In this document: positions 11,503-58,400 of the stretch, in pieces
Layout of the letters: every line of letters starts with the position of its first letter
Numbering within the stretch: the stretch's first letter is position 1
Source: Deltaproteobacteria bacterium HGW-Deltaproteobacteria-2
GTDB taxonomy: Bacteria > Desulfobacterota > Syntrophia > Syntrophales > Smithellaceae
Reading direction: 5' to 3'
DNA: 64,000 nt
NCBI GenBank assembly: GCA_002840505.1
Contig: PHBC01000005.1
Coordinates: 186,001-250,000, forward strand
Made by a program: the position numbers and the translations under genes
Notes under the pieces: model-generated
Database searches by the model: none
What the model saw: only the letters and a program-made list of their open reading frames with translations
Told to the model about the DNA's origin: nothing

Positions 11503-11573
11503 GAACACCTTTAAATTCGTTTATTTATCGGTATTTGACAATGATTTTATTGTGAGACTCAAATTTCAAAAAC

Positions 11574-37457: not shown

Positions 37458-37458
37458 A

Positions 37459-39340: not shown

Positions 39341-40132
39341 TTATTTGCGACGCTGAGCAAAGACAGCAGCACCCAAGGCACCGATTATTTGCGGGTCAAC
39401 GGGCAGAGGTGTTACTTCCATATTGATGACTTTGGTGAGCGCTTTGATCAAACCATGGCTTTTGGCACATCCGCCGGTTACGGTCACCTGGGGGCGCATA
39501 CCAATACGTTTAAGCAAAGAAAAGCAACGTTTGGAAACAGCCGTCTGGATGCCGGCGGCGATGTCTTCTGGTGGATTACGGCGGGCCAGAAGACTAATGA
39601 CTTCGCTTTCAGCGAAGACACTGCACTGGGCCGTGACGGGAATAATCTTTTTAGCCTTTAAGGAGAGGTCTGAAAATTCATCAAGATCCATACGGAAGAT
39701 GCGGCTCATCGCTTCGAAAAAGCGACCGGTCCCGGCTGCGCACTTGTCGTTCATAGCGAACTCCAGCACAGAGCCGTCGCCGTCGATGGAGATGGTCTTA
39801 ACATCCTGTCCGCCGATATCAACAATAGTTTTGATGGCCGGTGCGCAGGAAAATGTTCCCATCGCGTGACAACTGATTTCCGAAATATTTTCATTGGCAA
39901 AGGCCACTTCGTTGCGGCCATAGCCGGTGCCGACCAAGTAGGTCAGATTTTTGTAGCTGCCGATGTCCGGGACCTGGGCACAGGCCTTTTCCAGTGCCTG
40001 TATGGAAGTAACTTCCGGGTCTATCTCGCTGGGCACGATGATGCTGGCAACCATATTGCCGTTTTCATCCAATATTACCGCTTTACCAGTGGTGGAACCT
40101 ACATCGCATCCACCAAAATATTTTTTCGTCAT
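39341..40132 (-). CDS. 2-hydroxyacyl-CoA dehydratase/reductase activase (HgdC/BcrA-type ATPase) 3
   Basis: A 263-residue ASKHA-fold ATPase. It has GGCDVGSTTGKAV (phosphate 1), VDIGGQDVK (phosphate 2) and the two cysteines that hold a [4Fe-4S] cluster at the dimer interface: Cys131 in NDKCAAGTGRF and Cys170 in TAQCSVFAESE. It pumps single electrons to the dehydratase/reductase using ATP. It is the last gene of the 58-39 kb run, after the Fe-S protein that may feed it. Confidence 0.9.
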   Translation of the reverse strand: MTKKYFGGCDVGSTTGKAVILDENGNMVASIIVPSEIDPEVTSIQALEKACAQVPDIGSYKNLTYLVGTGYGRNEVAFANENISEISCHAMGTFSCAPAIKTIVDIGGQDVKTISIDGDGSVLEFAMNDKCAAGTGRFFEAMSRIFRMDLDEFSDLSLKAKKIIPVTAQCSVFAESEVISLLARRNPPEDIAAGIQTAVSKRCFSLLKRIGMRPQVTVTGGCAKSHGLIKALTKVINMEVTPLPVDPQIIGALGAAVFAQRRK

Positions 40133-40174
40133 GTTTATTCTTCTCCCTGTTATTATAATATTATCCTGTTGTAT

Positions 40175-41485
40175 TTATAGATCCAGCATCCAACCCTTAC
40201 CCTGTATTCGGGCAATGCTTCTGGCTGAAGATAGAAATGAGGATCTGAAAATATTACTCATAAGGGCCTGCTTAACCGGAGTCAGCTTCAGAAAAGCCCC
40301 AACGAATGTTCTCATATAGTCCTGGGTTATACTCATGGGATTATCGAATAGTTGATTCTGCAGTGTGCCGCGCTCGAGCGCTGCCAACATAGTCACCTCG
40401 AAAAGAGATTCCGGGTGTAAAACCTTACTTTCCCGCGGTATCATTTCCATTGCCTTGAAGGAACATTTGGCAATACATACTCCGCAACCCACGCATATAT
40501 CGGTATTCAGCTTGCAAGTTTTCTTTTTCATATTTTTGGGATCATTTGCAGATACCAGGCTCAAGGCATTTACAGGACATACTTTGACGCATTTTCCGCA
40601 CCCAGTGCACTTGCCTGCATCAATCTTGGAAATGAAATTGGAAGTAACGACGCAATTCTGATATCCGTACTTGGTCAATCCGCCTAAAAAGTTGCAGCAA
40701 CACTTGCAGCAGTGACAGATGGCCACGGGATTCTTTTTAGTATTGACGGCGCAGAAGACGAGACTATATTCCTTTGACCGGGCGAAATTGTCCAGCATCT
40801 CGGATTTCGTGACTTTGCGCGCAAAGTTGTTCCTTATGCCATAATCTGCTCCGATTCCTAAAAGACTGCAGCAATCCGTGGGTGCATCGCATCCCCTGGT
40901 TCCGTTATGCAGTTTTTCGCTTCTGCAGGAGCAAAGACCGATGGCCCACTTATCAGTGCTTTCAATTAGCGATGAAGCTTTCTCGTAATCGAAGAATTCC
41001 GTGTGACTGTCAGCCGTAATTGATTCTTCGACGGGAATAACGCGAAGCGCGGAGACCTTTTCATTGTTTGAAAAATTAGCTGCGTGTACGGAGCCGAAGT
41101 ATTCGTGAAAGAGATCGGCCATTCTCTTCTTGTTGAGATTGTTGTCGGTCCTCATCATGGTAAATTCGAATATTCCTATAGCTATAGGCCAGGGCATATA
41201 GTAGTACCGGCCATGTTTTTCGTTCCATGTGTCCATGACAAGCCCCTTCCTGCACAGACTATCTAATATGTTTTGCAGGCTGGTCTTCTCGATTTTGGTG
41301 ATTTGTGAGATTCTTTCCAGCGTCGAGAGAGTATAGGGCATCTTTACCACGACATCAGCCTCATCAGTGGTATAAAGCTCTTTCAAAATGCTGTGCCAAG
41401 TTTCATTCCAAGGTGCCTTCACATGCAGGTTATCTATCTTTTCCCCAAGCTTACGATAAATATGGCCATCATCGGTAATGTGCAT
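40175..41485 (-). CDS. Cys-rich 2x[4Fe-4S] ferredoxin-like protein with HTH-like N-terminus
   Basis: About 436 residues. Two ferredoxin motifs are present (CTGCGKCVKVCP near 295 and CVGCGVCIAKC near 332). They are preceded by two unusual Cys clusters: LCSCRSEKLHNGTRGC...CC near 185-208, and ICHCCKCCCNF near 257-266. The N-terminal 100 residues read like a winged-helix (TLSTLERISQITKI). It probably supplies low-potential electrons to the neighbouring activase or dehydratase. ATG 41485 has AGGAG upstream; TTG 41491 is too close to it. A deleted copy of this gene remains at 43191-43249. Confidence 0.78.
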   Translation of the reverse strand: MHITDDGHIYRKLGEKIDNLHVKAPWNETWHSILKELYTTDEADVVVKMPYTLSTLERISQITKIEKTSLQNILDSLCRKGLVMDTWNEKHGRYYYMPWPIAIGIFEFTMMRTDNNLNKKRMADLFHEYFGSVHAANFSNNEKVSALRVIPVEESITADSHTEFFDYEKASSLIESTDKWAIGLCSCRSEKLHNGTRGCDAPTDCCSLLGIGADYGIRNNFARKVTKSEMLDNFARSKEYSLVFCAVNTKKNPVAICHCCKCCCNFLGGLTKYGYQNCVVTSNFISKIDAGKCTGCGKCVKVCPVNALSLVSANDPKNMKKKTCKLNTDICVGCGVCIAKCSFKAMEMIPRESKVLHPESLFEVTMLAALERGTLQNQLFDNPMSITQDYMRTFVGAFLKLTPVKQALMSNIFRSSFLSSARSIARIQGKGWMLDL

Positions 41486-41527
41486 ATGCAAGTCTCCTAT
41501 ATTGAACTAAAGAAGCAACAATCCTCG

Positions 41528-43048
41528 TTATTGATCAATTGGCTTAGCCTTCATAACGTTTTCCATGAAAAAATCAACCTGCCGCATCATGTTTTCGTGA
41601 GAGACAATGCGCTCGTCGGAAAGATCGTAATCCAATACAAGCAAAGGAATGCCTTTCTCCCGACATTTTTCGCGCAGTATTCCGTTCATTGCCTGACCAC
41701 CCTTACAGCCCACGTGATTGGAAACCCAGACCATATCCAGATCGAACTGCTTGACCATGCGGAATATATCTTCCAGATAGTTTTCGGCCGGACCTCGGGT
41801 ATGGCGAACCATCGGACCCTGCATGATGGTCTTTCCCCAGCCTTTGACCATAGTCTCGGGTGAAGTTGTGTCAATTGGTTCATGATGATTATAGGTCATG
41901 CTATCGTTAATAAGAAAAATGCCGTATTTCTTTTCAGCCCATATAAAAATGTCACTGAAATGCAAAAAGGGCGGATTCCAGAGAACTGCCCTGTACCGCT
42001 CGTTCTTCTTGGCAGGAATATTGTTTTCCAGATTTTTTCGCGCCATTTTCACGAGCTTTTCGTAGTGCTGAATTGAAGCAGGATCACCGGCGGAAACGTT
42101 GAAATGCCACAGGTGACTCAACCACACTGCTATGCCTGCCACAGGGGAAGGCCTTTTCCTACTCATTTCCCATAACTCCATTTCAAGTTCCAGCATGCGA
42201 TTGCGTCCTTCAAAGAACCGGCGCATACGATTCCAGTCCATGCGTTTAGGGGTGTGTTTTTCCAGAAAGCCGATCATACCCATAACGTCTTTGGCGAAAA
42301 GTTGTTCTGCGCGCTCGTTGTAGAAATTATAGGGAGCATCCAGCCGGTAGGTGGGGATATCACCATATGCCCGCTGGATGAAGGCATAAGAAGCCGCTCC
42401 TGCATCGCAGGGCAGGTTAGAACTCACCATGGCCACGCCCTTGGGCGTATGACCTTTAAGAACCATACCTACAGTTGCCTTGGGCAAACTGCATGCATCG
42501 GGATTCATGCCAGAGTTTTCCGCCTCATCAATGTATTTTAAAGTGCCGTCCGATACCAGAATGGGCAGGATAATGCCCCAGAGTTCAAGCATGTAACAGT
42601 TCAAGCCCATTCCACGTGCGATATCATAAGGGACAAGGTCCTCAAAAATAACTAGATTCTCAGCATCCCACAGCATATTCCGCAGTTCATTAATAACACC
42701 TAATGTTACAGAGTGAACCGTTATGCAAATTGCATCATGATAAATACCTGTATTATCTCGCGCCGCACGATTGGCCAATCCGTTAACACGAATCAGTATC
42801 AGTATCCACGGATGTTTGATCAGCTTACGAATAAATGTAATAGGACCGAGCTTGAAAATGGAATACAATATCCATTGAATAATTGCCGCCCAGTTCATGA
42901 TCCAGTATTTCGTAAAAACAAGAGCCTCCCTGGGATGCGGCGCACTGAAATAATATCCGATAAGAGATCTTTTAAAAAAACCTTTCGACAATTCCGGCAG
43001 ACGCATGATTGTATTTCTGGTATTATCAAAAACAGTATTGAGCTTCAC
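41528..43048 (-). CDS. 2-hydroxyacyl-CoA dehydratase/benzoyl-CoA reductase-type subunit (alpha, copy 2)
   Basis: A 506-residue HgdB/BcrB-family (HGD-D) protein starting with GTG after AGGAGG. Conserved Cys blocks include LNCYMLELWG, NPDACSLPKA, SSNLPCDAGA and NHVGCKGGQAMNG; some of these would ligate the [4Fe-4S] cluster. The N-terminal 100 residues are an extension with aromatic-rich amphipathic stretches not seen in typical members. It is a close paralogue of the 43292-44812 product along its whole length. It follows the duplication scar and precedes the Fe-S protein. Cytoplasmic, CoA-thioester substrate, identity unknown. Confidence 0.82.
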   Translation of the reverse strand: MKLNTVFDNTRNTIMRLPELSKGFFKRSLIGYYFSAPHPREALVFTKYWIMNWAAIIQWILYSIFKLGPITFIRKLIKHPWILILIRVNGLANRAARDNTGIYHDAICITVHSVTLGVINELRNMLWDAENLVIFEDLVPYDIARGMGLNCYMLELWGIILPILVSDGTLKYIDEAENSGMNPDACSLPKATVGMVLKGHTPKGVAMVSSNLPCDAGAASYAFIQRAYGDIPTYRLDAPYNFYNERAEQLFAKDVMGMIGFLEKHTPKRMDWNRMRRFFEGRNRMLELEMELWEMSRKRPSPVAGIAVWLSHLWHFNVSAGDPASIQHYEKLVKMARKNLENNIPAKKNERYRAVLWNPPFLHFSDIFIWAEKKYGIFLINDSMTYNHHEPIDTTSPETMVKGWGKTIMQGPMVRHTRGPAENYLEDIFRMVKQFDLDMVWVSNHVGCKGGQAMNGILREKCREKGIPLLVLDYDLSDERIVSHENMMRQVDFFMENVMKAKPIDQ

Positions 43049-43069
43049 GTAAGCCTCCTTATGAATTCA

Positions 43070-43190
43070 TTATTTGCCCATGCTTTCAATAAACGCCTGT
43101 ACGAAGCTGACCTTCACCGCCAAGACGATATTCCCGCTCCACCTTGAGTACCGGTTTGCCCTTTTCACGCAATGCGGTTACCAACGGCAT
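43070..43190 (-). pseudogene. Remnant of beta-subunit gene 3' end
   Basis: This segment aligns with the last about 130 bp of the intact 378-residue beta gene (44834 onward). It includes the stop codon, the MGK end and the blocks matching GCCTGTACG, AGCTGACCTTC and ATTCCCGCTCCA. A 9-bp gap and several substitutions are present. The start and more than 85 percent of the gene are missing. It lies where a full beta gene is expected, upstream of alpha copy 2. Confidence 0.8.
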
Positions 43191-43249
43191 GGCATCTTTA
43201 CCACCACATCCACCTAATCAGGAGTATAAAGCTCCTTGGTAATGTGCAT
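43191..43249 (-). pseudogene. Remnant of Fe-S protein gene 5' end
   Basis: From the ATG at 43249 the first 13 bp match the start of the intact Fe-S gene (41485). A deletion of about 91 bp follows, then a stretch matching 41336-41382 (ATCTTTACCAC, ATAAAGCTC). The Shine-Dalgarno region (AGGAGACTTGCAT on the minus strand) is kept. It joins the beta remnant through a short shared GGCATC, consistent with a microhomology deletion. Confidence 0.8.
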
Positions 43250-43291
43250 ATGCAAGTCTCCTATATGGAACTAAAGAAGTAATAATCTTCT

Positions 43292-44812
43292 TTATTGATC
43301 AATGCGTTTAGCCTTCATGACATTTTCCATAAAGAAATCCACCTGCCGCATCATGTTTTCATGAGATACAATCCGCGGGTCAAAGAGGTCGTAATCCAGG
43401 ATGAGCAGGGGGATACCTTTGGCGCGGCACTGTTCGCGCAGAACGCCGTTCATGGCCTGACCGCCCTTGCACCCAACATGGTTGGCGATCCAGATCATAT
43501 CGAGATCGAATTGCTTGTACATACGAAAGATATCGTCCAAGTAGTTTTCAGCCGGTCCGCGGGTATGGCGCACCATGGGTCCCTGCATGATGGTCCTGCC
43601 CCAGTCCCTGATCATTGTTTCAGGGCTAGTTATGTTGATGGGTTCATGATGATTATAGGTCATGCTGTCGTTGAGAACGACTACACCATACTTCTGCTCG
43701 GCCCAATTTAACATGTCAACAAAATGGAGGAAGGGGGGGTTCCAGATTACTGTACGGTATTTCTCGTTCTTCGTGGCAGGAGTATTATTCTCAAGATTCT
43801 TACGTGCCATTTTAACGAGCTTTTCGTAATGTCGAATCGACGTCGGATTCCCGGCTGAGACATTGAAATGCCATATATGACTCAGCCACACTGCCGCGCC
43901 CGCCAGAGGGGCCGGCTTGATCCTGGTCATTTCCCACAGCTCCATCTCGAGTTCCAGCATGCGGTTGCGTCCCTGGCATATCTCACGCATACGATCCCAG
44001 TCCATGCGCCCGGGGGTGTGTTCTTCCAGAAATGCGATCATGCCCTTAACGTCCTTGGCAAAGAGCTTCTCGGCCCGCTCATTGTAAAAATTATACGGCA
44101 CATCCAGTCGGTAAGTGGGGATATCATTATCTACACGCCGGATAAAGGCATAGGAGGCCGCGCCGGCATCACAGGGCATATTGGAACTCACCATGGCCAC
44201 ACCCTTGGGCGTGTGACCCTTGATGACCATGCCCACGGTGGCCTTGGGCAGACTGCAGGCATCGGGATTCATACCCGAGTTTTCGGCCTCGTCTATATAT
44301 TTTAAAGTTCCTTCGGATGTTAAGATAGGCAGGACAATGCCCCAAAGTTCAAGCATGTAACAATTCAATCCCATTCCGCGCGCAATATCGTAAGGAACAA
44401 GATCCTCGAAAATAACCAGATTTTCAGCATCAAACAGCATGTTTCGCAGTTCTTCAATGACGCCTAAGGCCACGGTGTGGACCGTTATGCAAAGCGCATC
44501 ATGATAAACGCCGGTCTGGCCACGCGCTAAACGATTGGCAAGTCCGTTGACACGAAGCAAGGTCAGTATCCAAGGATGCTTGACCAGAGCGCGTATTAAT
44601 CCAATGGGCCCGAGCTTAAAAATGGATTGCCCTATCCAGTACAGAATTGCCCCCCAGTTCATGATCCAGTATTTTGTAAAAACCATAGCATCCCGGGGAT
44701 GCGGCGCAGAGAAATAATATCCGATGAGAGATCTCTTTAGGAACCCTTTCGTTGCATCCGGCAGACGCATGATGGTATTTTTGGTATTGTCCAAGACAGT
44801 ATTGAGTTTCAC
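43292..44812 (-). CDS. 2-hydroxyacyl-CoA dehydratase/benzoyl-CoA reductase-type subunit (alpha, copy 1)
   Basis: A 506-residue HGD-D family protein with a GTG start (GGAAG upstream). Same Cys blocks as copy 2: LNCYMLELWG, NPDACSLPKA, SSNMPCDAGA and NHVGCKGGQAMNG. The long N-terminal extension (about residues 1-110, aromatic and hydrophobic) is also shared. It lies 21 bp after the intact beta gene, with which it should form the heterodimer. Substrate unknown; an electron-transfer, radical dehydration or ring reduction is expected from the family. Confidence 0.83.
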   Translation of the reverse strand: MKLNTVLDNTKNTIMRLPDATKGFLKRSLIGYYFSAPHPRDAMVFTKYWIMNWGAILYWIGQSIFKLGPIGLIRALVKHPWILTLLRVNGLANRLARGQTGVYHDALCITVHTVALGVIEELRNMLFDAENLVIFEDLVPYDIARGMGLNCYMLELWGIVLPILTSEGTLKYIDEAENSGMNPDACSLPKATVGMVIKGHTPKGVAMVSSNMPCDAGAASYAFIRRVDNDIPTYRLDVPYNFYNERAEKLFAKDVKGMIAFLEEHTPGRMDWDRMREICQGRNRMLELEMELWEMTRIKPAPLAGAAVWLSHIWHFNVSAGNPTSIRHYEKLVKMARKNLENNTPATKNEKYRTVIWNPPFLHFVDMLNWAEQKYGVVVLNDSMTYNHHEPINITSPETMIRDWGRTIMQGPMVRHTRGPAENYLDDIFRMYKQFDLDMIWIANHVGCKGGQAMNGVLREQCRAKGIPLLILDYDLFDPRIVSHENMMRQVDFFMENVMKAKRIDQ

Positions 44813-44833
44813 GTAAGCTTCCTTATGACACCG

Positions 44834-45970
44834 TTATTTACCCATGCTTTCGATGAAGGCCTGTACGCGTGTGCGCAGCTGACCTTCGCCGCTAAGGTGG
44901 TATTCCCGCTCCAGTTTGAGTACCGGTATTCCCTTATCACGCAACGCAGTTACGAGAGTCATGGAATCCACGCCCCAGAGATCACAGAATTTGATAATTT
45001 CGAGCACCACGCCATCTGCGTTGTATTCTTTCACGGTGTCGACAATTATATTCAGCCGGCGATCGAAATCTTCCATCATACGCGGACAGAGCGTCTTTTT
45101 AAAGGTGTATTCAGCCATTATTTTGTAGGGGCTATCATTATTGAGTTCTATGGTTTTGAATCCGGGAATTGTTCCGGTACAGAAACGGTCTGCTACAACC
45201 AGACATCCCTGCGATTCGATTATCTTTATAAATTCCGGGTTATGTAAATGACCGCCTACAACCACCAGGCGTGCCCGGGAATTCTTTATACCCTCACGTT
45301 GTTCAAGCTCTTTCTTGAAATCGAGGATATAAGGAAGGATCAAATCCTTGGGCGATGTCAGAGAAGCCATGACGATCTGGTGAAATTCGGTGCCGCTGAT
45401 GGGTGGATTAGGTTTCTTGCGCAATTCACCGATAGATTGAATTGTACTGGCAAAATCGTTCCACTGGCGCATGGCCTTTCTGAGCGATTCATCGCTCATG
45501 TCCACGCCGAAATGACCGGCAAGTTTATCAGCGAGTGTCTTCAGTTCATCCGTCATCCAGACGAGCGTATCCTTGTTTACTTTACGCGGTACGTCCAGGA
45601 TATGATTAAAGTCAGGCTTCTGGAGATATTCCAGGTTATCGTAGAGACGCTGCATATGGGCACACGAAGGAACAAATACCCACCCTTTCAGCAGATCAAA
45701 ACGTCCATCCATGGCAAATTCTAACAGGCCGCGGACGTAGCTGCAGGTGAAACTCGAAAGATAATTATCCGCGATCTCGGTTCCGGCCAGGCCGGGCGCG
45801 TGCAGACGCACCGGGAAAAGTTTGTCTGCCATGAGCAAAGCCTCGGGCACGAACGAACAGGAATACGCAATAGGTATGCGCCCGCTTTGCTCCGCTTGTT
45901 CAACCAAACGATTTTGCGGACTCTCCAAAAGTTCTTCAAATACCTTCATGGTTTTGCTAGGTGGTGCCAT
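44834..45970 (-). CDS. 2-hydroxyacyl-CoA dehydratase/benzoyl-CoA reductase-type subunit (beta, set 1)
   Basis: A 378-residue HGD-D family protein of the BcrC/HgdB small-subunit type. Likely cluster-binding Cys appear in AYSCSFVPEALL (about 34), FTCSYVRGLLEF (about 74) and VPSCAHMQRLYD (about 102). ILDVPRK is the usual motif following. It precedes the alpha subunit by 21 bp. A truncated second copy remains at 43070-43190. Confidence 0.83.
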   Translation of the reverse strand: MAPPSKTMKVFEELLESPQNRLVEQAEQSGRIPIAYSCSFVPEALLMADKLFPVRLHAPGLAGTEIADNYLSSFTCSYVRGLLEFAMDGRFDLLKGWVFVPSCAHMQRLYDNLEYLQKPDFNHILDVPRKVNKDTLVWMTDELKTLADKLAGHFGVDMSDESLRKAMRQWNDFASTIQSIGELRKKPNPPISGTEFHQIVMASLTSPKDLILPYILDFKKELEQREGIKNSRARLVVVGGHLHNPEFIKIIESQGCLVVADRFCTGTIPGFKTIELNNDSPYKIMAEYTFKKTLCPRMMEDFDRRLNIIVDTVKEYNADGVVLEIIKFCDLWGVDSMTLVTALRDKGIPVLKLEREYHLSGEGQLRTRVQAFIESMGK

Positions 45971-46004
45971 ACTAATATTCCTCCTTCATTCAACTTCTAT
46001 TCCA

Positions 46005-46838
46005 TCAGTAGATGCTTTCTCCCCGTTTTAGGTCTCCGAAGAGACGTGCAAAGATCGTATTATAGAGGGATGAAATCACCAAATTCCCGTACCACCAGGA
46101 TTCGTTTAAGGCTTCTTTGGGACAAATGTTCTGACAGTGGTAACAGCGGATGCATCGGCCATCCAGGACCGGATATGGTGCAAGCTTAATACTCTGCACC
46201 GGACATTCCTTGGCGCAGAGCTCACACTGATTGCATCGGCTCTGTGTAAGTTTTGGCTTGGGCAGAATGATGCGCAGCAGAAAAGGCTTCGCTATGAGAC
46301 CTACCAGTTGATAAAATCCCAAAGTTGGTTTAAGCGCGTCCGGACGGCTCTCCGGCATGGTGCCCGCATCGCAGGACTTAAGATGTTTTTCCACGGCCAA
46401 AGCAAAGGTACGAGCTTCGGCCAAATCTTTGGCGTTAGGACGGTTCGGCAGCCGGCCAATCAGACACGGTGCCGGGTGGTGTACCATACCCCGGCTCATG
46501 AAGCCGCCGATGACATTCGATCCTTTTTTGCGCAGCTCCCGGGTTAGCTCATAAAGAACACGACCGGGTGCTCCGCCCGCAGTGGCGAAAACAAAAGCCT
46601 GTTTATCTTGAATGGCTGGCCATGTACGCAACCAGGTTTTAACTGCTGAAGGGGCCTGGCTTTCGAAACATGGAGAGCCCACGCCCAGTAAATCACATTT
46701 TTTGATATCTTCCGGATCAACATCCTGTATAGTCGAGACGCGGACGGTGTGTTTTTTTTTGCGCAGGACGGTGGCCATGGCTTCCGCAACTTTGCGCGTC
46801 TGTCCTGTTTGCGAAAAATATACTATTGCAATATTCAT
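46005..46838 (-). CDS. Flavodoxin-ferredoxin fusion (EFR1-type)
   Basis: About 277 residues. Residues 1-155 form a flavodoxin-like domain starting MNIAIVYFSQTGQTRKVAEA with an FMN phosphate loop. The C-terminal 70 residues hold two [4Fe-4S] motifs, CNQCELCAKECP and CIRCYHCQNICP. Such fused electron carriers may deliver electrons to ATP-dependent activases. It sits between the CooC-type gene and the set 1 beta subunit, with an unusually wide gap of 107 bp from the CooC-type gene. Confidence 0.82.
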   Translation of the reverse strand: MNIAIVYFSQTGQTRKVAEAMATVLRKKKHTVRVSTIQDVDPEDIKKCDLLGVGSPCFESQAPSAVKTWLRTWPAIQDKQAFVFATAGGAPGRVLYELTRELRKKGSNVIGGFMSRGMVHHPAPCLIGRLPNRPNAKDLAEARTFALAVEKHLKSCDAGTMPESRPDALKPTLGFYQLVGLIAKPFLLRIILPKPKLTQSRCNQCELCAKECPVQSIKLAPYPVLDGRCIRCYHCQNICPKEALNESWWYGNLVISSLYNTIFARLFGDLKRGESIY

Positions 46839-46945
46839 AGAATACTCTCTTATAATCAATAAAAAAATCAGTGTAGCAGCTTCATCTTTTCCGGAATACC
46901 AGTGATGGTGATAGAAAACATCATGGAGAATATTCCTGAAAATTA

Positions 46946-48500: not shown

Positions 48501-48536
48501 TTTCCTCTCATTTTGTAGCGGCGGTTCTCTCTGTTT

Positions 48537-51519: not shown

Positions 51520-52664
51520 GCGGCAGCCCTCCTCTGCTGTATTCTTTCGATAAAGGCGTCAACACGCATTTTCATTCTACCCGTTTCTACCAAGGGGCCG
51601 TACTCGCGCTCCAAACGCATGCAAGGTATGCCCTGTGCTTCCAAGTCCTTCTCGAACAGTCCGTTTTCGGCACCATGAAGATCGCAAAATCGGATGTTTT
51701 GCAGAATAACGCCTTCAATTTTCGCCTTTTCTACTTTTTGTGTGAGTATGTCTAATCTTCTACGATAATCTCCATACATGCGGGGACAATCATTGTGCCC
51801 CAGATATCGCTTGCAGAGTGCTGATACTGGATCACCATCTTCGTCCACTCTGTCGCTATAAAAGCGCGAACCGAAACAAAGATTGTCGGCAACTACTAAG
51901 GATTTTTCCCCTTCAATCACCTTGACCAGTTCCACATCATCATTGGCACTGCCCACGAGCATCAAACGCACGCGTCCTTTAATCCCCGGTGATTTTTCGG
52001 CATTAGAAATAAACTGCTCCAGTAATTTATTGTATTCTTCCCGGGGCATGGTGGTGCCGGAAAGTATAACCGCCAAAGCTTCTTCTCCTGTGAAGGGAGG
52101 AGCATCCAGAGTGCGCAGCGCTTCGAAACGATCAAGGAGAACTCTGCTTTGATTATACAGTTTGATAGACTTTTTCAGATCGGCTTCGGCAATCTTCACC
52201 TTAAAGTGTTCTTCTACTGCCGCAATTAGGCGTCGGGTTTCATCAGTCAGCCACTTAATAGTGTAGTCCGAGTATTTATGAGGGACGCCGTAATGAAAAA
52301 AGAAAGGGGGGATGACGCCCTCTACGTCGCTGCCGGCCTTGCGCCAGCACTCATCGAGCCTTCGCATCGAATCGCAACCCGGGGTGATAATTGCGCCGTC
52401 TAAAAAATTAAACTTACCCTCTCCGGCCAACTGCAGCATGCATTTGGGAAGGCTGCAAATAAAAGGTCCGAAATAGGTATCACCGATTGTAGTGTCGGTG
52501 GAGCCAAAGCCTCGTATTCTAAAGGGAAGTATTCCCGCAGCATGAAAGATTTCATCGGGCACATACGAACAAGTATAGCCGACCACTTTTTTCCCGCTTT
52601 CTTTCCACTGCTTTACATATTTATTGTTGAGTACGGTGGAAGTCTCAAAAAATTCTTTCATCAT
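51516..52664 (-). CDS. Benzoyl-CoA reductase/HGD-type subunit (BzdN/BcrC-like, set 2)
   Basis: A 382-residue HGD-D family protein. Cluster-type Cys are in GYTCSYVPDEIF (about 33), PFICSLPKCML (about 71) and TPGCDSMRRLDECW (about 98). QNIRFCDLHGAE near the C-terminus matches the substrate-region motif of this family. It overlaps the 410-residue helical protein gene by 4 bp and the BzdO-like gene by 4 bp, so the set is translated as a unit. Confidence 0.84.
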   Translation of the reverse strand: MMKEFFETSTVLNNKYVKQWKESGKKVVGYTCSYVPDEIFHAAGILPFRIRGFGSTDTTIGDTYFGPFICSLPKCMLQLAGEGKFNFLDGAIITPGCDSMRRLDECWRKAGSDVEGVIPPFFFHYGVPHKYSDYTIKWLTDETRRLIAAVEEHFKVKIAEADLKKSIKLYNQSRVLLDRFEALRTLDAPPFTGEEALAVILSGTTMPREEYNKLLEQFISNAEKSPGIKGRVRLMLVGSANDDVELVKVIEGEKSLVVADNLCFGSRFYSDRVDEDGDPVSALCKRYLGHNDCPRMYGDYRRRLDILTQKVEKAKIEGVILQNIRFCDLHGAENGLFEKDLEAQGIPCMRLEREYGPLVETGRMKMRVDAFIERIQQRRAAA

Positions 52665-53893
52665 ACGACGGCCTCCTTGCTGTTAATGGCGCTTTTCAAA
52701 TATGCCAGCGCTTCCTCAATTTCCGCGGGAACACCCGCAACATCAGGTCTCAAAAGATCTGCTATTCCTCTGATAAGGGGCGGCAATACTTCGGACGCCA
52801 CCGGTTTAAGAGATTCCACAACGTCATCTGTCAACCAGCGCACCGTTTCCCCAACCTCGTTCGCATCCACTGAATTTATTGTTTGCGATAAAGTATTTCG
52901 TATGATTCCGGGAGTGGTAGCACGTACGCGATTTAACATTCCGCACAATCTGCTGATCGTACTTGCTATCTCCTGGGCATCAATTTCACCCATTCCCTTG
53001 GCAAATTCACGCGCTATATCTTCGTCGGAAAACAAGCGCTCAAAGGCGTCGGCCTTGCGACTCCATTTTCGAATTGAAGCGATCATCGAAACAAAATGGC
53101 TTTGAAAGAACTCCCTGGATAGCTCCGGACTCTGCTCCAGCAAATCAATAAAGCTCTGCAACGCCATTTCTTTGATTTCAGCTAAAGAATTTTTGGTTTT
53201 AAGTAAAAGATTGATGTCGATCGCGCTCATAGTCTCACGCGTGATGCGCGATAAGGTATTGGCCGATTGAGGCTTGCCCGGCTCTCCCAGAAGAGCACTG
53301 CCGGTGTGTACCTTTCGAACCAACTCGCTAAGCTCATTAATAAGCAGTCCGATTTCTTTGCCGTCGATTTCATCAGCCAGAGACAATACAACGTCGGCGA
53401 GAAGGTCCGGCGCCAGATTATTTATTGGTGTTAAAGTTTCTTTCACTGCCGAAACAGCTGTATTTGCGACTGATGGAAGAAGAGAAAGCAGACAGACCAC
53501 TTTAGCGGGATATCGCCACATCTCCTCATTGGCCATTTTAACTACTGCAGTAATATCGTCTTGGGAGCAATCCAATGCTTCCTTTAATTCTCCAAAATCT
53601 ATATTTTCAATTATTTCCCGAAATCCGGGACGCAGAATTTCCGCATAATCCACATCGCCGGTTAACGTGTTTTCAGTTTTACCTTTTGCGGACAGAACTT
53701 CGTTAAAAATCTTTTCCACATTCGCGGACATCCGCATTTTTAGTTTGCTGTCACCAGACCAGTCTTGAAGCGCCGCGTGAACAATAGACATTATTAGTTT
53801 TCTTGCCGCGGGTGTTTTTACTATCCTCCACACAACCATGCCCGTCATATCGGCGACGCTCTCTGGTTGAATCGATTTTTCAACACATTTCAT
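52661..53893 (-). CDS. Unknown helical protein A (about 410 residues)
   Basis: An almost wholly helical, soluble protein, with no Cys cluster and no signal peptide. It shares a repeated unit with the two following proteins: LLSLLPSVANTAV, then NNLAPDLLADVVLSLADEID and GKEIGLLINELSEL. The unit appears to occur more than once along this protein (for example again in NSVDANEVGETVRW). I choose ATG 53893 because GGAGG lies eight bases upstream; a longer frame starts at 53908. The family is not recognised. Its coupling to the BzdN-like gene suggests a structural or assembly role. Confidence 0.7.
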   Translation of the reverse strand: MKCVEKSIQPESVADMTGMVVWRIVKTPAARKLIMSIVHAALQDWSGDSKLKMRMSANVEKIFNEVLSAKGKTENTLTGDVDYAEILRPGFREIIENIDFGELKEALDCSQDDITAVVKMANEEMWRYPAKVVCLLSLLPSVANTAVSAVKETLTPINNLAPDLLADVVLSLADEIDGKEIGLLINELSELVRKVHTGSALLGEPGKPQSANTLSRITRETMSAIDINLLLKTKNSLAEIKEMALQSFIDLLEQSPELSREFFQSHFVSMIASIRKWSRKADAFERLFSDEDIAREFAKGMGEIDAQEIASTISRLCGMLNRVRATTPGIIRNTLSQTINSVDANEVGETVRWLTDDVVESLKPVASEVLPPLIRGIADLLRPDVAGVPAEIEEALAYLKSAINSKEAVV

Positions 53894-53963
53894 GGAATAT
53901 GCCTCCATTCAAAATTTAAACTTCAATTTCCACTCAATAGTTTTTGTAAAACTATCCCTTTCG

Positions 53964-54605
53964 CTACTTCCGGCGTTTCATCCTTTTACGGAGAAGCTGC
54001 CATGCCCAGGAAACCAAATGCAGCTTCTGGTCGAGTACAGCATTGACGATAGTGTGGGTCGCATCACGGAGCTCATCACCGTCGACATTTGCCACTACGT
54101 CAGAAACGAATTTGTTCACTATGCGCGGGTCGCTTATGCTGATTTCGTTGACAAAACGGCACGCTGAATTGATTCCCTGACCGATTAGCGGCGGAACCTC
54201 TTGAGTTATTGCCTTGCTGACCGCTTCCCTCAGTTCGGGTGAAGCTTCCCAAAGATTTTTTATCATTGTGGAGTAGGCTTCAACCAGGGCTTTAAATTCA
54301 TCAGTGTCAATATCCTTTATAATACTGCCAAGATAATCTCTGAGCAGTTCCGGTGAAAATTTTTCATTGAGTTGATTTCCAGTTGCCGCCAGAGCACCTA
54401 CACAGGAGTTGACAATAGGCGGAATGGAGCCCAAAATGGACAAAATAACCTCCGGATCCTGCCAGATAAGAGCTATCACCAGCGGATGGGATTTGTCCGG
54501 TTTTATGTTTTGTAAAGAATTACGTATTATATCTTTCACAAAGGGTGTGCGTAATACCTCTTTGAGCACTCCTCCCTCGGCGGGCATCACGGCGCTATTT
54601 TCCAT
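53964..54605 (-). CDS. Unknown helical protein B
   Basis: A 213-residue helical protein, Lys/Arg-rich at the C-terminus (RKRMKRRK). Shared with protein C are LRTPFVKDIIRNSLQNI, IWQDPEVILSILGSIPPIVNS, and LNEKFSPELLRDYLGS. The first ATG overlaps the end of protein C by 11 bp. No known domain recognised. Basic tail could bind membrane or nucleic acid, or another subunit. Confidence 0.68.
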   Translation of the reverse strand: MENSAVMPAEGGVLKEVLRTPFVKDIIRNSLQNIKPDKSHPLVIALIWQDPEVILSILGSIPPIVNSCVGALAATGNQLNEKFSPELLRDYLGSIIKDIDTDEFKALVEAYSTMIKNLWEASPELREAVSKAITQEVPPLIGQGINSACRFVNEISISDPRIVNKFVSDVVANVDGDELRDATHTIVNAVLDQKLHLVSWAWQLLRKRMKRRK

Positions 54606-55032
54606 GTTCTTCTCCCTCCGTATTAGTATTGGAAGCCTCTTGCTCCTTGTATGCCTCTTCCGCTACGATCCACAATTCAGTTGCCAGCAATTTTCCGTTG
54701 CGGACGATACTTTCCAGTGATTTTTTATCAAGTGATAAAACCATCGATTTCATAAAATCGTGCAGCAGTAGAGGTGAAAACTTATCGTTAAGCTGAATGA
54801 GCAGTTCATCCAGGCCTTGAATTAAGGAATTGAAGATAGAAGGAACGGCGCCCAGCAATCCCAGAAAAAACTCCGGGTCCTGCCACATCATCGTTCTAAC
54901 CAGTCTTCGGCTCGCTTCGGGATCGATATTCTGCAGTACTGTTCTTGTGCCTTCTTTGAAGCCCGGTTTTTTGAGCAGTTCCTTAAGAACTCGATCGGTT
55001 AAGTCAATTACTCCTTTATTGGCTTCTTCCAT
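54595..55032 (-). CDS. Unknown helical protein C
   Basis: A 145-residue helical protein, acidic at the C-terminus (NTNTEGEEHGK). It shares KPGFKEGTRTVLQNI, WQDPEFFLGLLGAVPSIFNS and LNDKFSPLLLHDFM with protein B over about 90 residues. The start is set at ATG 55032 by AGGAG upstream; a longer frame starting at 55173 overlaps the dehydrogenase gene and lacks a ribosome binding site. Function unknown. Confidence 0.68.
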   Translation of the reverse strand: MEEANKGVIDLTDRVLKELLKKPGFKEGTRTVLQNIDPEASRRLVRTMMWQDPEFFLGLLGAVPSIFNSLIQGLDELLIQLNDKFSPLLLHDFMKSMVLSLDKKSLESIVRNGKLLATELWIVAEEAYKEQEASNTNTEGEEHGK

Positions 55033-55042
55033 TTTTTTTCTC

Positions 55043-56326
55043 CTATAATGTCTTGCAGTTGAAGAAATACCGGGCTGCTTCCATCTGACAGAGCTGCTTG
55101 CCGCCCATCCATAACTGAATGATTTTGATATCGCGCCAATGCTTTTCAATATCGTATTCGCGGTCGGCACCATATGGGCCGAGAACGTCCATTGCCTTTC
55201 CGAAAATATCCACCGCTCTGTCTGAGACGAAGTCTTTGAGGTTACGCATCTTGCAGGCTACTTCATCCGTATAGATGGGATAGCCGTATGGTTTGTTGCG
55301 CCTGTCGCCCATTCTTGCCGCTTCATAGGTCAGAATTCTGCAAACATCTATATCGCCGGCGATCCGGCCGATAATGCTGGCAATGTGGTCGTCTTCTTTC
55401 AGGGGTTTGTTCTTGTAAGTTTTCGTCGATACGAAGTCATAGAGAATTTCGTAAAGGTTGAGCATCGCGCCGCACAGAAATCCCATACTGGCCGCTAATC
55501 CCCAGGGAATGATTTCGCGGAAGACCTGAGCGTCCATCCCTGGTCCGTGAGCGCGGTACCAGACGGGAACCCTAACATCTTCAAACCAGATATCGCCGTT
55601 TTTATCGGCGGCCATACCGGCTTTTTCATAAGGGCCTCCCTGGGTTACACCTTTGGCATCGGCGGGAACAAATATCATGGCGAAGTCGTTGGGGTCATTT
55701 GATCCCAGTTTCGTTGTGCACGGAACGCTAAACAGCTTAGCTACACCACCGGTATTGGTAGGCCAAAGCTTGTGACCGTTTATAACCCATTCATCGCCCT
55801 CTAAACGGGCAAGGGTGCGGATGGTTTTGCCTCCGAGAATGTCCATGTTTTCGATATCCGCTCCGCCTTGAGGTTCCGTCATGGCATTGGCCGCGAAGAC
55901 CGCTTTGTCAGCATTGCAGAACATGGGGGCGAATTCTTTGGCCAGCCGCCAGTTGACATGAGGATCGACCAGAATAGTCGTGAGCGGCCAATAGGTAACC
56001 ATAAAAGCCACAGCCATGGCCGTGTCTGCCCGTCCGACCTCTTCCGCCAACGCGCAGGAAACTGTGAAGGCGGAATCGGATTGTCCAATGCCCCAGCCTC
56101 CCAGCTCCGGCGGGAATAGCGCTTTTTGAAGGCCGACGCCTTTATTTCCCATAAGCTTGTCGAAGGCCGGCTCAATCATGTGATGGTTTTTCCAGTCTTC
56201 ATCGTATTTGCGTCTGAAGGGCATTACCTCCTTGGCGGCCCAGTTTCTAATGACACTGCGGATGTGTTTGTCCATAGGTGATATATATTCTTCCGGTTTT
56301 GAGAATTCATCGAAGTTTTTCATCAT
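55043..56326 (-). CDS. Acyl-CoA dehydrogenase family protein 1
   Basis: A 427-residue FAD enzyme. N-terminal helical domain, middle domain with NAMTEPQGGADIENM (substrate and FAD contact), and C-terminal domain ending LGPYGADREYDIEKHWRDIK. Where the usual catalytic Glu lies (Y-E-G-T), this reads LWMGGKQ, so the base must be elsewhere or the enzyme differs in chemistry. It overlaps the spacing of the next dehydrogenase by 11 bp and both precede the unknown helical proteins. Tandem dehydrogenases next to ring reductases act on cyclic CoA esters in some syntrophs; that is only analogy here. Confidence 0.82.
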   Translation of the reverse strand: MMKNFDEFSKPEEYISPMDKHIRSVIRNWAAKEVMPFRRKYDEDWKNHHMIEPAFDKLMGNKGVGLQKALFPPELGGWGIGQSDSAFTVSCALAEEVGRADTAMAVAFMVTYWPLTTILVDPHVNWRLAKEFAPMFCNADKAVFAANAMTEPQGGADIENMDILGGKTIRTLARLEGDEWVINGHKLWPTNTGGVAKLFSVPCTTKLGSNDPNDFAMIFVPADAKGVTQGGPYEKAGMAADKNGDIWFEDVRVPVWYRAHGPGMDAQVFREIIPWGLAASMGFLCGAMLNLYEILYDFVSTKTYKNKPLKEDDHIASIIGRIAGDIDVCRILTYEAARMGDRRNKPYGYPIYTDEVACKMRNLKDFVSDRAVDIFGKAMDVLGPYGADREYDIEKHWRDIKIIQLWMGGKQLCQMEAARYFFNCKTL

Positions 56327-56337
56327 TCGTCTCCTTT

Positions 56338-57579
56338 TTAAATCTCTTTGCAGTCAAAGAAAAACCGCGCCGTATCCATCTTTACCGGCGCCTCGGCACC
56401 GACTCCGCACAGGTATGACTGGATGGTCTTGACATCCCTCCAGTGTTTTTCCACATGCCACTCCTTGGAGTAGCCGGCGGACCCCATAAGTTCCAATCCT
56501 CTGTTTATTGCCCGCATTACATTCTGTTGTATTTTTGATCCGATAACCTGCGAAATTGTGTAAACTCTTTGGCTGCCGCTTTGTCCCCAGTCATTCGGCT
56601 TGGACATTGTTTGAGCAAGATCATAAACCAGTAATCTAGAGGTGAAGACCTCGTCCGCTACATCAGCCAGAACGGAGGCGCAGAGGGGATTTTCTTTCAT
56701 CATGTAACCGCCCTTGATTGTTCTTGTCTCGGACCAGTCGCCGACCATTTCAAAAAAGTTCATGCCCGTTCCTACGCTTACACCGCCGAGCAGAAGATTT
56801 AACCAGGTGTAGATTTCCTCTACGACACCCTGACGGGAGATAACATATGCTTTGGGAATTCTTACATTATTGAAACTGACATCGGCATTAAAGGTGGAGT
56901 TTAAACCGGTTTCCAGAAGAGTCTTGCCGCGAACTATATTGGTGTCGTTACCGGGGACAAAAGCGATACAGGGCTTGCCTGCTTTGTCGGCGCAAACCAC
57001 ACAAAAAAGATCAGCTGTGGCGCCACTGTTAATCGGCCGGAGATCTTTGCCATTAACGACATAACCATCGCCTTCCGGCTCAATGGTAGCAAGAATCGAT
57101 CGGCCCAGGAATAAGGGGGTATCCTGTCCAACATTTCCCATTCCGGGAAGGATAAGGGAAAAAGTTTTTAATTCTTCACCGCAGTAAACAGGCGCGAGCG
57201 CGTCACACAGGGCTTTGTCGAAATTTGGAGCCATAGTGATCGTGGCTAAGATCGTGTATTTGACGGCGGTTGCTACGCCTATAGCGGCGTCTGCTCGTCC
57301 GATTTCGGTGAGAATGGAAACCAAGCCCGGCGCGTTGGCAGGATTAGTCCAGCCAAATCCGCCGTGTTCTTCGGGCAGGATAAGTCTTTGCAGGCCGATA
57401 GTGAGATTGAGCGTTTTGCTCTTTTCAATAAAGAGCTTTTCGTAATTTTCCCTATACTCCTGACGCTTGGAAATAATCTCTTTGTCGGCCCATTGCCTTA
57501 CCAGATTAATAATAGGTTTCGACTCCTCATCCACCAATTCCTTTGGGTAAACAAACAACTCATCCAGGGCTTTGTTCAT
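56338..57579 (-). CDS. Acyl-CoA dehydrogenase family protein 2
   Basis: A 413-residue dehydrogenase-fold protein. Acyl-CoA dehydrogenase features include LPEEHGGFGWTNPANA, the GRADAAIGVAT middle segment and GSAGYSKEWHVEKHWRDVK. The catalytic-Glu segment reads SYLCGVGAEAP, again lacking Glu in the Y-E-G-T position. ILPGMGNVGQ replaces the usual T-E-P-x-x-G-S-D contact. First structural gene after TetR, with GGAGGAG before the ATG. Confidence 0.8.
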   Translation of the reverse strand: MNKALDELFVYPKELVDEESKPIINLVRQWADKEIISKRQEYRENYEKLFIEKSKTLNLTIGLQRLILPEEHGGFGWTNPANAPGLVSILTEIGRADAAIGVATAVKYTILATITMAPNFDKALCDALAPVYCGEELKTFSLILPGMGNVGQDTPLFLGRSILATIEPEGDGYVVNGKDLRPINSGATADLFCVVCADKAGKPCIAFVPGNDTNIVRGKTLLETGLNSTFNADVSFNNVRIPKAYVISRQGVVEEIYTWLNLLLGGVSVGTGMNFFEMVGDWSETRTIKGGYMMKENPLCASVLADVADEVFTSRLLVYDLAQTMSKPNDWGQSGSQRVYTISQVIGSKIQQNVMRAINRGLELMGSAGYSKEWHVEKHWRDVKTIQSYLCGVGAEAPVKMDTARFFFDCKEI

Positions 57580-57611
57580 AGCTCCTCCTTTTCCCGATTA
57601 TTGTTTTTGTT

Positions 57612-58331
57612 TTATTTTTTTCGAGGTCCGGTTTTTCTTTTATTTTGAACTGTCTTTATTTTGCTTATGATTTTTTTCTTTTCAACGGTTGTCTTTTTAG
57701 GATCTATTGGATTCATCAAGACAGTGCGGATTACTTTCTTGAGTTTTTGCATAGCCTTTTCCAGATCATCAGGTGCATCCACGATAGGAGGCCTGAGGAT
57801 TGTGTTAAGGAAATCTATCTGATTGTCGTATTCGTTGGGTTCATCAAAGGCCAGCGAATGGAAAGAAAGTCCCAGAAAATAAATGAATATTGCCCGGGCA
57901 AACTGTCTGGAGATGTTTAGTCGCTCCGACATACCGGCCGTATAGCGTTCAGCAAAAAACGAATATACCTCCCTCCACTGCTTGATATCTACATTCCGGT
58001 AAACATCAATTGCCAGAAGCATGATGTCTTCATAGAGCTCGCCATTTTCCTTCCAGTAATCTATAATCATGTCAAAACGTTCACGGATGCTTTCGATAGA
58101 CTCCGTACGGCGGATATATTCATCTACGTTTTCATCGCCGAGCCAGGCAATCATCTGGGCGAGCATGTTTTCTTTGGAGGGGAAATAATGGTAGAGCGAT
58201 CCCGTAGAGACGCCGTTCTCGGCGGCAATTTCTTTCATGTTGATGTTGTGATATCCCCTGCGGGTGAATAGACGTAAACTGTTTTTCAATAACTCTTGAC
58301 GATATTCATCATGGTTGACGATTTTTGGCAT
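57612..58331 (-). CDS. TetR-family transcriptional regulator
   Basis: About 239 residues. N-terminal helix-turn-helix: LLKNSLRLFTRRGYHNINM then GVSTGSLYHYFPSKENML (about 27-44). Helical ligand-binding domain follows; the C-terminus is a Lys/Arg-rich tail of about 30 residues, unusual for TetR. ATG 58331 has AAGGAGGG nine bases upstream; a longer frame from 58400 runs across the promoter. First gene of the minus-strand 58-39 kb run and its likely repressor, possibly CoA-ester responsive as in FadR-like TetR proteins. Confidence 0.85.
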   Translation of the reverse strand: MPKIVNHDEYRQELLKNSLRLFTRRGYHNINMKEIAAENGVSTGSLYHYFPSKENMLAQMIAWLGDENVDEYIRRTESIESIRERFDMIIDYWKENGELYEDIMLLAIDVYRNVDIKQWREVYSFFAERYTAGMSERLNISRQFARAIFIYFLGLSFHSLAFDEPNEYDNQIDFLNTILRPPIVDAPDDLEKAMQKLKKVIRTVLMNPIDPKKTTVEKKKIISKIKTVQNKRKTGPRKK

Positions 58332-58384
58332 GGTCAAGTCCCTCCTTGTTTTATATCGAATAGGCGTTATAAAAAAAACATATA

Positions 58385-58400
58385 GACAAATTTTTGTCAA
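58385..58400 (-). promoter_or_regulatory. TetR promoter -35 overlapped by palindromic operator
   Basis: GACAAATTTTTGTC at 58385-58398 has 6-bp inverted arms and a 2-base centre. It overlaps TTGACA on the minus strand (58400-58395), a -35 candidate. A -10 candidate, TATAAC, lies farther than ideal. The overlap fits autorepression. Confidence 0.5.

Follow-up and report, generated by a model that had tools for sequence, protein, structure and literature searches.

Related reductases and the gene island

The BZD-type class I benzoyl-CoA reductase (BCR) BzdNOPQ of Aromatoleum sp. CIB is known from the crystal structure of BzdNO (PDB 8S02), in which BzdN holds an [8Fe-9S] double cubane on Cys36, -73, -100, -263, -293, and -327, and BzdO holds an active-site [4Fe-4S]-OH2 cluster on Cys95, -128, and -380, with Glu65 and His131 as acid-base groups (PMC11971306). 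BzdNO is described as the first double-cubane reductase with a defined catabolic role, and the potentials that such reductases attain lie below the usual biological range (PMC11971306). HadB of the 2-hydroxyacyl-CoA dehydratases (HADs) has Ala in place of His131, and DCCP is a homodimer (PMC11971306). Here, we compare these enzymes with a gene island in the genome of Deltaproteobacteria bacterium HGW-Deltaproteobacteria-2 (3.28 Mb, 11 contigs, 98% complete), which lies in the stretch C5:186001-250000 (contig PHBC01000005.1), 64,000 nucleotides long and referred to as the window. Judged from its sequence, the island probably encodes two ATP-dependent enzymes of the class I BCR/HAD family that reduce CoA thioesters and whose N-subunits fall in a clade marked by a CooC-type ATPase and a fragment of acetyl-CoA synthase (ACS).

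The island consists of 18 genes in about 19 kb, all on the minus strand, from a TetR gene, whose open reading frame (ORF) extends to position 58400, through a third activase gene (39341). The genes, coordinates, and strand listed in an initial annotation, which used the sequence without database searches, were all confirmed; the gene overlaps that it put at 1 to 14 bases have this range and occur at 6 of the 17 gene junctions. Strong ribosome-binding sites precede many of the gene starts. Pfam and NCBIfam assign a TetR regulator, two acyl-CoA dehydrogenase (ACAD) folds, five PF06050/HGD-D proteins, three BcrAD/BadFG activases, a CdhC-domain protein, a CooC/MinD-type ATPase, a flavodoxin-ferredoxin, and a ferredoxin-domain protein. 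The joining of ACS- and CooC-type parts with HGD-D enzymes, which the initial annotation did not know to be described, was found in no paper: searches of the open-access PubMed Central full text, a scope outside which subscription papers and preprints lie, showed none that places CooC or a fragment of CdhC together with BCR/HAD genes.

Reductase subunits and active site

The first reductase set is made up of HGD382 (positions 51516 to 52664), a BzdN-like electron-storage subunit, HGD468 (50113 to 51519), a BzdO-like active-site subunit, and the activases ActA (49322 to 50113) and ActB (48537 to 49325), in the order N-O-P-Q, which we take to be the gene order in Aromatoleum as well. The second set comprises a second double-cubane subunit, HGD378 (44834 to 45970), the active-site subunit HGD506a (43292 to 44812), and its tandem duplicate HGD506b (41528 to 43048), with ActC (39341 to 40132) as their probable activase partner. 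The three activases belong to the BadF/BcrA/HgdC family (PF01869 E values of 1e-56 for ActA and ActB and 7e-55 for ActC; ActA also matches TIGR00241) and keep two cysteines each, C125 and C164 in ActA (26/26) and ActB (19/19) and C131 and C170 in ActC (15/15); ActA and ActB probably form a heterodimer.

All six double-cubane cysteines of BzdN are matched in HGD382 by alignment (C32, C70, C97, C263, C293, and C327) and are invariant in 20 of 20 HGD382 sequences, and the six are likewise invariant in 17 of 17 HGD378 sequences. Among the N-subunits from loci that carry a CdhC-like gene, 47 of the 48 complete ones keep the six cysteines, five partial rows having been dropped. The three active-site cysteines are kept in all 28 HGD468 sequences (C134, C163, and C415) and all 14 HGD506 sequences (C186, C214, and C448), in which the position of BzdO His131 is occupied by Asn (28/28) and Gly (14/14), respectively, and none of the 62 O-subunits from CdhC-bearing loci has a His there. 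A Glu, placed by spacing alone, is invariant 31 residues before the first cysteine in the same HGD468 (28/28) and HGD506 (14/14) sequences, and Glu65 of BzdO lies 30 residues before the first cluster cysteine by the published numbering (PMC11971306). Because the six and the three cysteines are kept and His131 is replaced, the enzymes look like the double-cubane type of the BzdN/DCCP kind rather than HAD beta subunits, and their active site looks different from that of BzdO.

The island therefore resembles BzdNOPQ in the six N-subunit cysteines, the three active-site cysteines, the two activases, and the common gene order. It differs in the Asn or Gly in place of His131, in N-subunits that fall outside the BzdN branch, and in scores far below the cutoffs of the NCBIfam BzdN/O/Q equivalogs (HGD382, 127 of 454 bits; HGD506b, 26 of 449 bits; ActA, 193 of 380 bits), and it adds the CooC-type ATPase, the ACS fragment, and the helical and ACAD-like proteins. 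With DCCP and its reductase (PDB 6ENO), it shares the six-cysteine [8Fe-9S] site and an ATP-dependent activase, whereas the island N-subunit is encoded beside a three-cysteine active-site subunit, DCCP lies outside the clade, and the double_cubane (DCCP) equivalog scores of 165 and 158 bits are below the cutoff of 350 bits. It is improbable that the HGD-D sets are ordinary 2-hydroxyacyl-CoA dehydratases that carry out no net reduction. HadBC/HadI (PDB 3O3M) do have the same PF06050 fold, an activase, and no His at the 131 position, where HadB has Ala (PMC11971306). However, HadC lacks the equivalents of C36 and C263, two of the six cysteines kept in the island N-subunits and both present in HGD382 by alignment, and it falls outside the clade in the tree; the ActA/ActB pair stands in BzdNOPQ order, and the NCBIfam HAD equivalogs are far below their cutoffs, at best 161 of 700 bits. 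The initial annotation had called the island one of reductases or dehydratases, and the ATP-driven CoA-thioester reductase is the better supported of the two, the enzymes having the six BzdN cysteines and a separate clade; from the family, we regard it as quite likely that they are ATP-dependent reductases rather than dehydratases.

The CooC-linked pairs have mostly small residues or Asn at the His131 position. A strict rule tying this residue to CooC was dropped, as unlinked pairs have such residues too, for example, CDGG in L146 and CDSA in L135. The proteins HGD506a and HGD506b are 82% identical, with 243 bases between their genes (41528 to 44812 in all), and two HGD506-type genes likewise occur in L076 and L078. 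HGD506a has a long N-terminal extension, its HGD-D match starting at residue 142; membrane anchoring of HGD506 was rejected despite the hydrophobic-looking N terminus, the highest 19-residue Kyte-Doolittle mean being 1.65 (HGD506b, at residue 147). The search of the source genome also found HGD-D pairs without CooC or CdhC at C5:77395-79657 and C10:2575-4873 (L004, L005, L007, and L008), in which the active-site subunit reads CDTH, with a His three residues past the second cysteine, and the partner lacks three double-cubane cysteines. These pairs are candidates for another benzoyl-CoA-reductase-like enzyme.

Distribution and phylogeny of the gene association

The association was searched for in 60 genomes (the source genome and its relatives) and in a draw of 395 genomes of the phylum, mostly metagenome-assembled genomes (MAGs), in which the stretches are bounded by contig ends or fetch limits; the locus search reached across the home phylum and one Spirochaetes MAG. 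Standalone CdhC-like proteins are well separated from full-length ACS among the matches listed (at least 98 bits versus at most 64 bits). Forty-four standalone CdhC-like loci were read, not counting the window, and L043, with a broken gene and a lower score, fell below the 80-bit limit. The fetched stretches of these 44 loci contain HGD-D genes in 37, an activase gene in 36, and CooC in 34. L031, which has no HGD-D gene, covers half of a stretch that has its HGD genes in L030; in L041, L079, and L096, a contig end is close to the CdhC-like gene, and the readable side shows no HGD-D gene. Conserved synteny in related genomes, which the initial annotation had proposed to look for and whose absence it would have taken as a refutation, was found. 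All or part of the island is present in seven relatives of the same genus (L033 to L039), and a family of the same phylum (f52) has a near-complete island order with small changes, namely, the ACADs, helical proteins, HGD382, HGD468, ActA, ActB, CdhC, CooC, HGD378, HGD506, FeS438, and ActC. The core of the island, without the ACADs, occurs in the Spirochaetes MAG (L029; JALOTL010000006.1). Because the gene order is kept in other genomes, the arrangement goes beyond chance. In the tree, the HGD382 of L029 nests within the genus of the window and its HGD378 is more distant; this locus reflects either a transfer between phyla or a misbinned contig. A 16S match was obtained in 1 of the 17 genomes of the genus and none in the source genome; a 16S fragment of a relative within the genus contains exact DELTA495a and SRB385Db probe sites, in agreement with Desulfobacterota. 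A scan of named genomes by a method suited to close relatives found one relative. Across the 395 genomes, a clade N-subunit was listed in 31 and a standalone CdhC-like protein in 29, with 25 shared (P = 7e-30), a co-occurrence that is partly circular because CdhC-linked loci supplied the sequences for the N-subunit profile.

A maximum likelihood tree of 119 N-subunits was inferred with a quick search, with SH-aLRT values as the sole support. In addition to the loci chosen through CdhC, it drew on 20 stretches from N-subunit profile matches, including genomes with a strong match and no standalone CdhC, and on 40 stretches picked by hand among the PF06050 places listed in 59 genomes, mostly neighboring HGD pairs; the rows chosen through CdhC were separated in the tests. 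Every N-subunit linked to CooC or CdhC falls in one clade of 65 rows (SH-aLRT of 98), and BzdN (which pairs with L193), HadC, MbdN, and DCCP all lie outside it. Within the clade, 43 rows have both CooC and CdhC in the fetched stretch, 7 have CdhC only, 6 have CooC only, and 9 have neither; outside it, neither gene is found in 50 of 50 rows, the PDB rows not being counted. CooC thus accompanies 49 of 65 rows inside and none of 50 outside, and for rows not chosen through CdhC, the counts are 6 of 15 and 0 of 50 (P = 6e-5). As placed by the tree, the enzymes form a clade of their own within the class I BCR/HAD family, one that is undescribed.

ACS fragment and CooC-type ATPase

The CdhC-like protein (47760 to 48500; PF03598, E value of 1e-14) is the middle (A2) domain of ACS only and ends within the A-cluster motif, at C215-x2-C218-x5-C224. 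Its AlphaFold2 (AF2) model (pLDDT of 90.9) matches ACS in Foldseek with an E value of 1e-10. In the alignment, the A-cluster of three full ACS proteins of the phylum reads C-x2-C-x8-C-x9-C, and the fragment reads C-x2-C-x5-C and then ends, so that it keeps the first three of the four cysteines, which are invariant in 39 of 39 sequences. The fold of the middle domain and these three cysteines are shared with the ACS beta subunit AcsB/CdhC (PDB 1OAO and 7ZKJ); the fourth cysteine, the C-G-C motif, and the C-terminal domain are not. The C-G-C motif, which we take to be the nickel site of ACS, is absent in 44 of 44 CdhC-like proteins. The CdhC-domain protein of the initial annotation is therefore ACS-like in this domain, and a working ACS is not supported, as the nickel site and the fourth A-cluster cysteine are missing.

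The CooC-type deviant Walker A ATPase (46946 to 47773), whose gene overlaps the CdhC-like gene by 14 bases, has a GCYC metal-binding motif and a Cys/His-rich tail. Its best PDB match is CooC1 of Carboxydothermus hydrogenoformans (phmmer E value of 9e-20), aligned over the Walker A and CxC motifs, and the CxC cysteines of CooC1 coordinate Zn or Ni where the subunits of the dimer meet (PMC6006190). GC[YF]C is kept in 35 of 35 CooC homologs scanned, and the Walker A pattern is kept in 31. The island protein shares the deviant Walker A and the CxC metal motif with the CooC/AcsF nickel insertion ATPases (PDB 3KJE) but is encoded beside a reductase of the BCR/HAD type, and in its genus neither a carbon monoxide dehydrogenase (CODH) over the cutoff nor an ACS C-terminal domain was found. 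A MinD-like positioning or switch ATPase that handles no metal and organizes a complex with the helical proteins and the CdhC-like protein as an adaptor is a very unlikely alternative; the family is MinD/ParA-like and the island has three scaffold-like helical proteins, but the metal motif is kept in all 35 homologs scanned, CooC itself is the best PDB match, and some loci with CooC have no helical proteins (e.g., L087, L091, L093, L095, and L099).

In the 17 genomes of the genus, CooC and CdhC-like genes occur in the same 10, in equal copy numbers. The ACS C-terminal domain is matched in none of the 17 and CODH reaches the cutoff in none, several of these MAGs being incomplete; the CODH model matches found in 11 of them are all partial and under the cutoff. 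CooC was found with the reductase, with no CdhC-like gene detected, in six loci (L136 to L139, L141, and L142), and GC[YF]C is kept in five of the CooC proteins of this CdhC-free set, the sixth having C-F-C. Neither CODH nor ACS appears to be what CooC serves in this genus, and its most likely client is the reductase, because the genus lacks ACS C-terminal matches and CODH over the cutoff and CooC accompanies the reductase in the six CdhC-free loci. These loci (e.g., L136, 10340 to 11131) hold CooC directly with HGD-N, HGD-O, and activase genes, a simpler form of the system; in L136 and L137, the listed CooC gene shares 4 bases with that of the active-site subunit.

The fragment could instead be a catalytic or electron transfer component, rather than a maturation factor, with CooC only its maturase; its three cysteines would hold an open [4Fe-4S] cluster, perhaps metal bound, that passes electrons or binds the CoA thioester. 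The invariance of three of the four A-cluster cysteines, which align with those of full ACS, fits this idea, as do the position of the gene between the activases and the second reductase, its overlap with CooC, and its presence without CooC nearby in seven clade rows. We nevertheless consider it unlikely, as the nickel site domain is lacking (C-G-C in 0 of 44) and CooC accompanies reductases where no CdhC-like gene was found, so that the client of CooC is not the fragment alone.

Taking motif, operon, and distribution together, we somewhat favor the reading that CooC and the ACS fragment handle a metal for this clade. Several observations weigh against it. Nine clade rows have neither gene in the fetched stretch; five of these come from short stretches or from stretches that stop directly behind the activases (L133, L140, L184, L187, and L191), and the other four (L135, L185, and two in L183) show no obvious truncation. 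Seven further clade rows have CdhC and no CooC nearby. In L100 to L102, the CdhC-like gene adjoins only an ACAD gene, with no HGD-D gene in reach. A full ACS and a standalone fragment occur together in some relatives from other families (e.g., G094, G070, and G060), and CooC there could therefore serve both. Finally, 20 N-subunits outside the clade keep the six cysteines with no CooC or CdhC in the fetched stretch, and the [8Fe-9S] cluster of BzdNO formed in Escherichia coli from a bzdNO plasmid (PMC11971306).

The last two observations also bear on the idea that CooC and the CdhC-like protein assemble the [8Fe-9S] double cubane, which appears highly improbable. It would agree with the six cysteines of 47 of the 48 complete N-subunits from CdhC-bearing loci and with the source genome, in which the full set of six is present in the three linked pairs but not in the three unlinked ones. 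However, among the stretches drawn through PF06050, none of which has a CooC or CdhC match over 100 bits, 27 of 41 N-subunits have the six cysteines, 20 of these outside the clade, which indicates that the pair of genes tracks this clade and not the double cubane. Given these 20 unlinked N-subunits and the production of BzdNO in E. coli, CooC and CdhC are dispensable for the double cubane as such, and double-cubane maturation was rejected as their general role on this wider draw.

A precedent for the metal-handling reading is a putative isoprene reductase operon with HypA/HypB, in which nickel chaperones are tied to a nonclassical reductase by gene neighborhood (PMC10134865); it is a precedent only, as the enzyme and chaperone families differ. 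Two other comparisons were set aside: the genes listed in the available text on known benzene activation clusters (PMC13101534 and PMC13416013) differ from those of the island, and CooC, BcrA, HgdC, and Mmp15 are absent from the main text on the methyl-coenzyme M reductase activation complex (PMC12176620). The available part of a paper on CODH gene context contains none of the words dehydratase, BadF, benzoyl, and activase (PMC13056359).

In L100 (1944 to 2747), L101 (2024 to 2827), and L102 (9811 to 10614), the gene next to the CdhC-like gene is ACAD427-like and no CooC is in reach; L102 also has a family III CoA transferase and a DctP-type binding protein nearby. The ACS fragment may work with a flavoprotein in these loci. 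The source genome has a second CdhC-CooC cluster at C3:608000-645000 (L030 and L031), with its own HGD pair, two activases, and a ferredoxin-like gene, and with an AMP-ligase-like gene, a thiolase, and a GMC oxidoreductase near the reductase; the related L044 adds a nitroreductase. The thiolase of both is presumably of the SCP-x-like kind. A steroid or polycyclic substrate is suggested by this gene content for that cluster only and was rejected for the window island, for which nothing points to it; the cyclic or unusual acyl-CoA substrate of the initial annotation is not supported either, the context being weak.

Proposed mode of action

To the gene content, cysteine sets, clade, and CooC association seen in the sequences, we add cluster types, an electron path, metal loading, and partner roles that we infer as follows. 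Electrons from reduced FldFd (46005 to 46859), a flavodoxin fused to a ferredoxin-type 4Fe-4S domain (Pfam Flavodoxin_3 and Fer4) and the probable donor, or from FeS438 (40175 to 41491), which has a dicluster ferredoxin domain (Fer4) and further conserved Cys clusters (18 Cys invariant in 8/8), would pass to the activase dimers (ActA/ActB and ActC). ATP hydrolysis would drive each electron onto the [8Fe-9S] double cubane of HGD382 or HGD378, which would store at least two electrons and deliver them to the three-cysteine [4Fe-4S] site of HGD468 or HGD506, where the CoA thioester would be reduced. The CooC-type ATPase would load a metal (nickel by analogy, with zinc and iron also possible) or a cluster, either into the three-cysteine site of the fragment or directly into the active-site subunit. 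The helical proteins would belong to the first reductase as docking or scaffold subunits, and both ACAD-like flavoproteins would act on the same acyl group as the reductase. We give this proposal as a whole, two ATP-driven radical CoA-thioester reductases with dedicated metal handling by CooC and the ACS fragment, an even chance.

That the metal is nickel at the active site of the reductase is a guess and unlikely to be right. It is equally doubtful that the clade represents a branch of the BCR/HAD family that depends on a heterometal, probably nickel, with Ni at or next to the three-cysteine [4Fe-4S] site, in which a decommissioned ACS domain would help CooC and nickel would replace the histidine-assisted water ligand; if it did, its members would be ATP-driven Ni-Fe-S reductases of a new class, acting on a CoA thioester that is hard to reduce. 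If CooC and the fragment load a metal, an enzyme family that performs Birch-like chemistry would have a new metallocofactor, and if they load none, CooC and the ACS middle domain would have a new job. The metal question is now testable with a defined gene set.

Helical and ACAD-like proteins and other genes

The initial annotation had noticed three related helical proteins, and Hel146 (54595 to 55032), Hel213 (53964 to 54605), and Hel415 (52661 to 53908, overlapping HGD382 by 4 bases) are indeed homologous by hhalign, with probabilities of 99.9% for Hel146-Hel213, 97.9% for Hel213-Hel415, and 96.5% for Hel146-Hel415. The start of Hel146 is at about 55032 rather than 55173; scanned as the longer ORF (54595 to 55173), it has no Pfam match at an E value of ≤0.1, and Hel213 has none over the cutoff. 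Of the conserved Hel415 family, 18 of 18 members have no Pfam match at an E value of ≤0.01, and the AF2 model of Hel415, all helical and moderately confident (pLDDT of 75; pTM of 0.57), has no Foldseek match in PDB at an E value of ≤0.001. Hel415 is present in 21 of the 22 rows of the HGD382 branch, the exception (L038) being a stretch that begins inside HGD382, and no Hel415 was found outside this branch among the loci scanned. The three helical proteins thus make up a single family that goes with the first reductase, and a family without a Pfam match thereby gains a context. In L184 (5239 to 14298), a FAD-type oxidoreductase-like ORF and a TetR-like gene (both judged from their first 40 residues) directly precede Hel415, which is followed by an HGD382-type gene, two HGD468-type genes, two activases, and the contig end.

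ACAD413 (56338 to 57579; Pfam ACAD domains and PDB phmmer) and ACAD427 (55043 to 56326; Pfam ACAD domains) have the acyl-CoA dehydrogenase fold. The canonical catalytic Glu is absent from ACAD413 in 9 of 9 aligned sequences, with SYLCG for YEG in the window, and from ACAD427 in 10 of 11, with LWMGG in the window; the exception is a second ACAD427 paralog in L080 (10491 to 11753), which has LYEGG and lies near one that reads LWMGG. These proteins may use another base or may have lost dehydrogenase activity. The TetR family regulator (57612 to 58331; Pfam TetR_N, E value of 1e-15) probably starts at an internal ATG at 58331 (MPKIV) and also heads the island in L029, L033 to L035, and L039.

Elsewhere in the window, a 1,022-amino-acid ORF (8440 to 11508) combines an MMPL-type transporter domain with a methyltransferase domain at the C terminus, and the fused DAK2, FakA-like middle, and DegV domains of another (16440 to 18158) mark a fatty acid kinase-like protein. 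An ACAD-like gene (37357 to 38583) has no match to the C-terminal ACAD domain, and its listed start overlaps the preceding VWA/CoxE-like gene, with an AAA ATPase gene just upstream.

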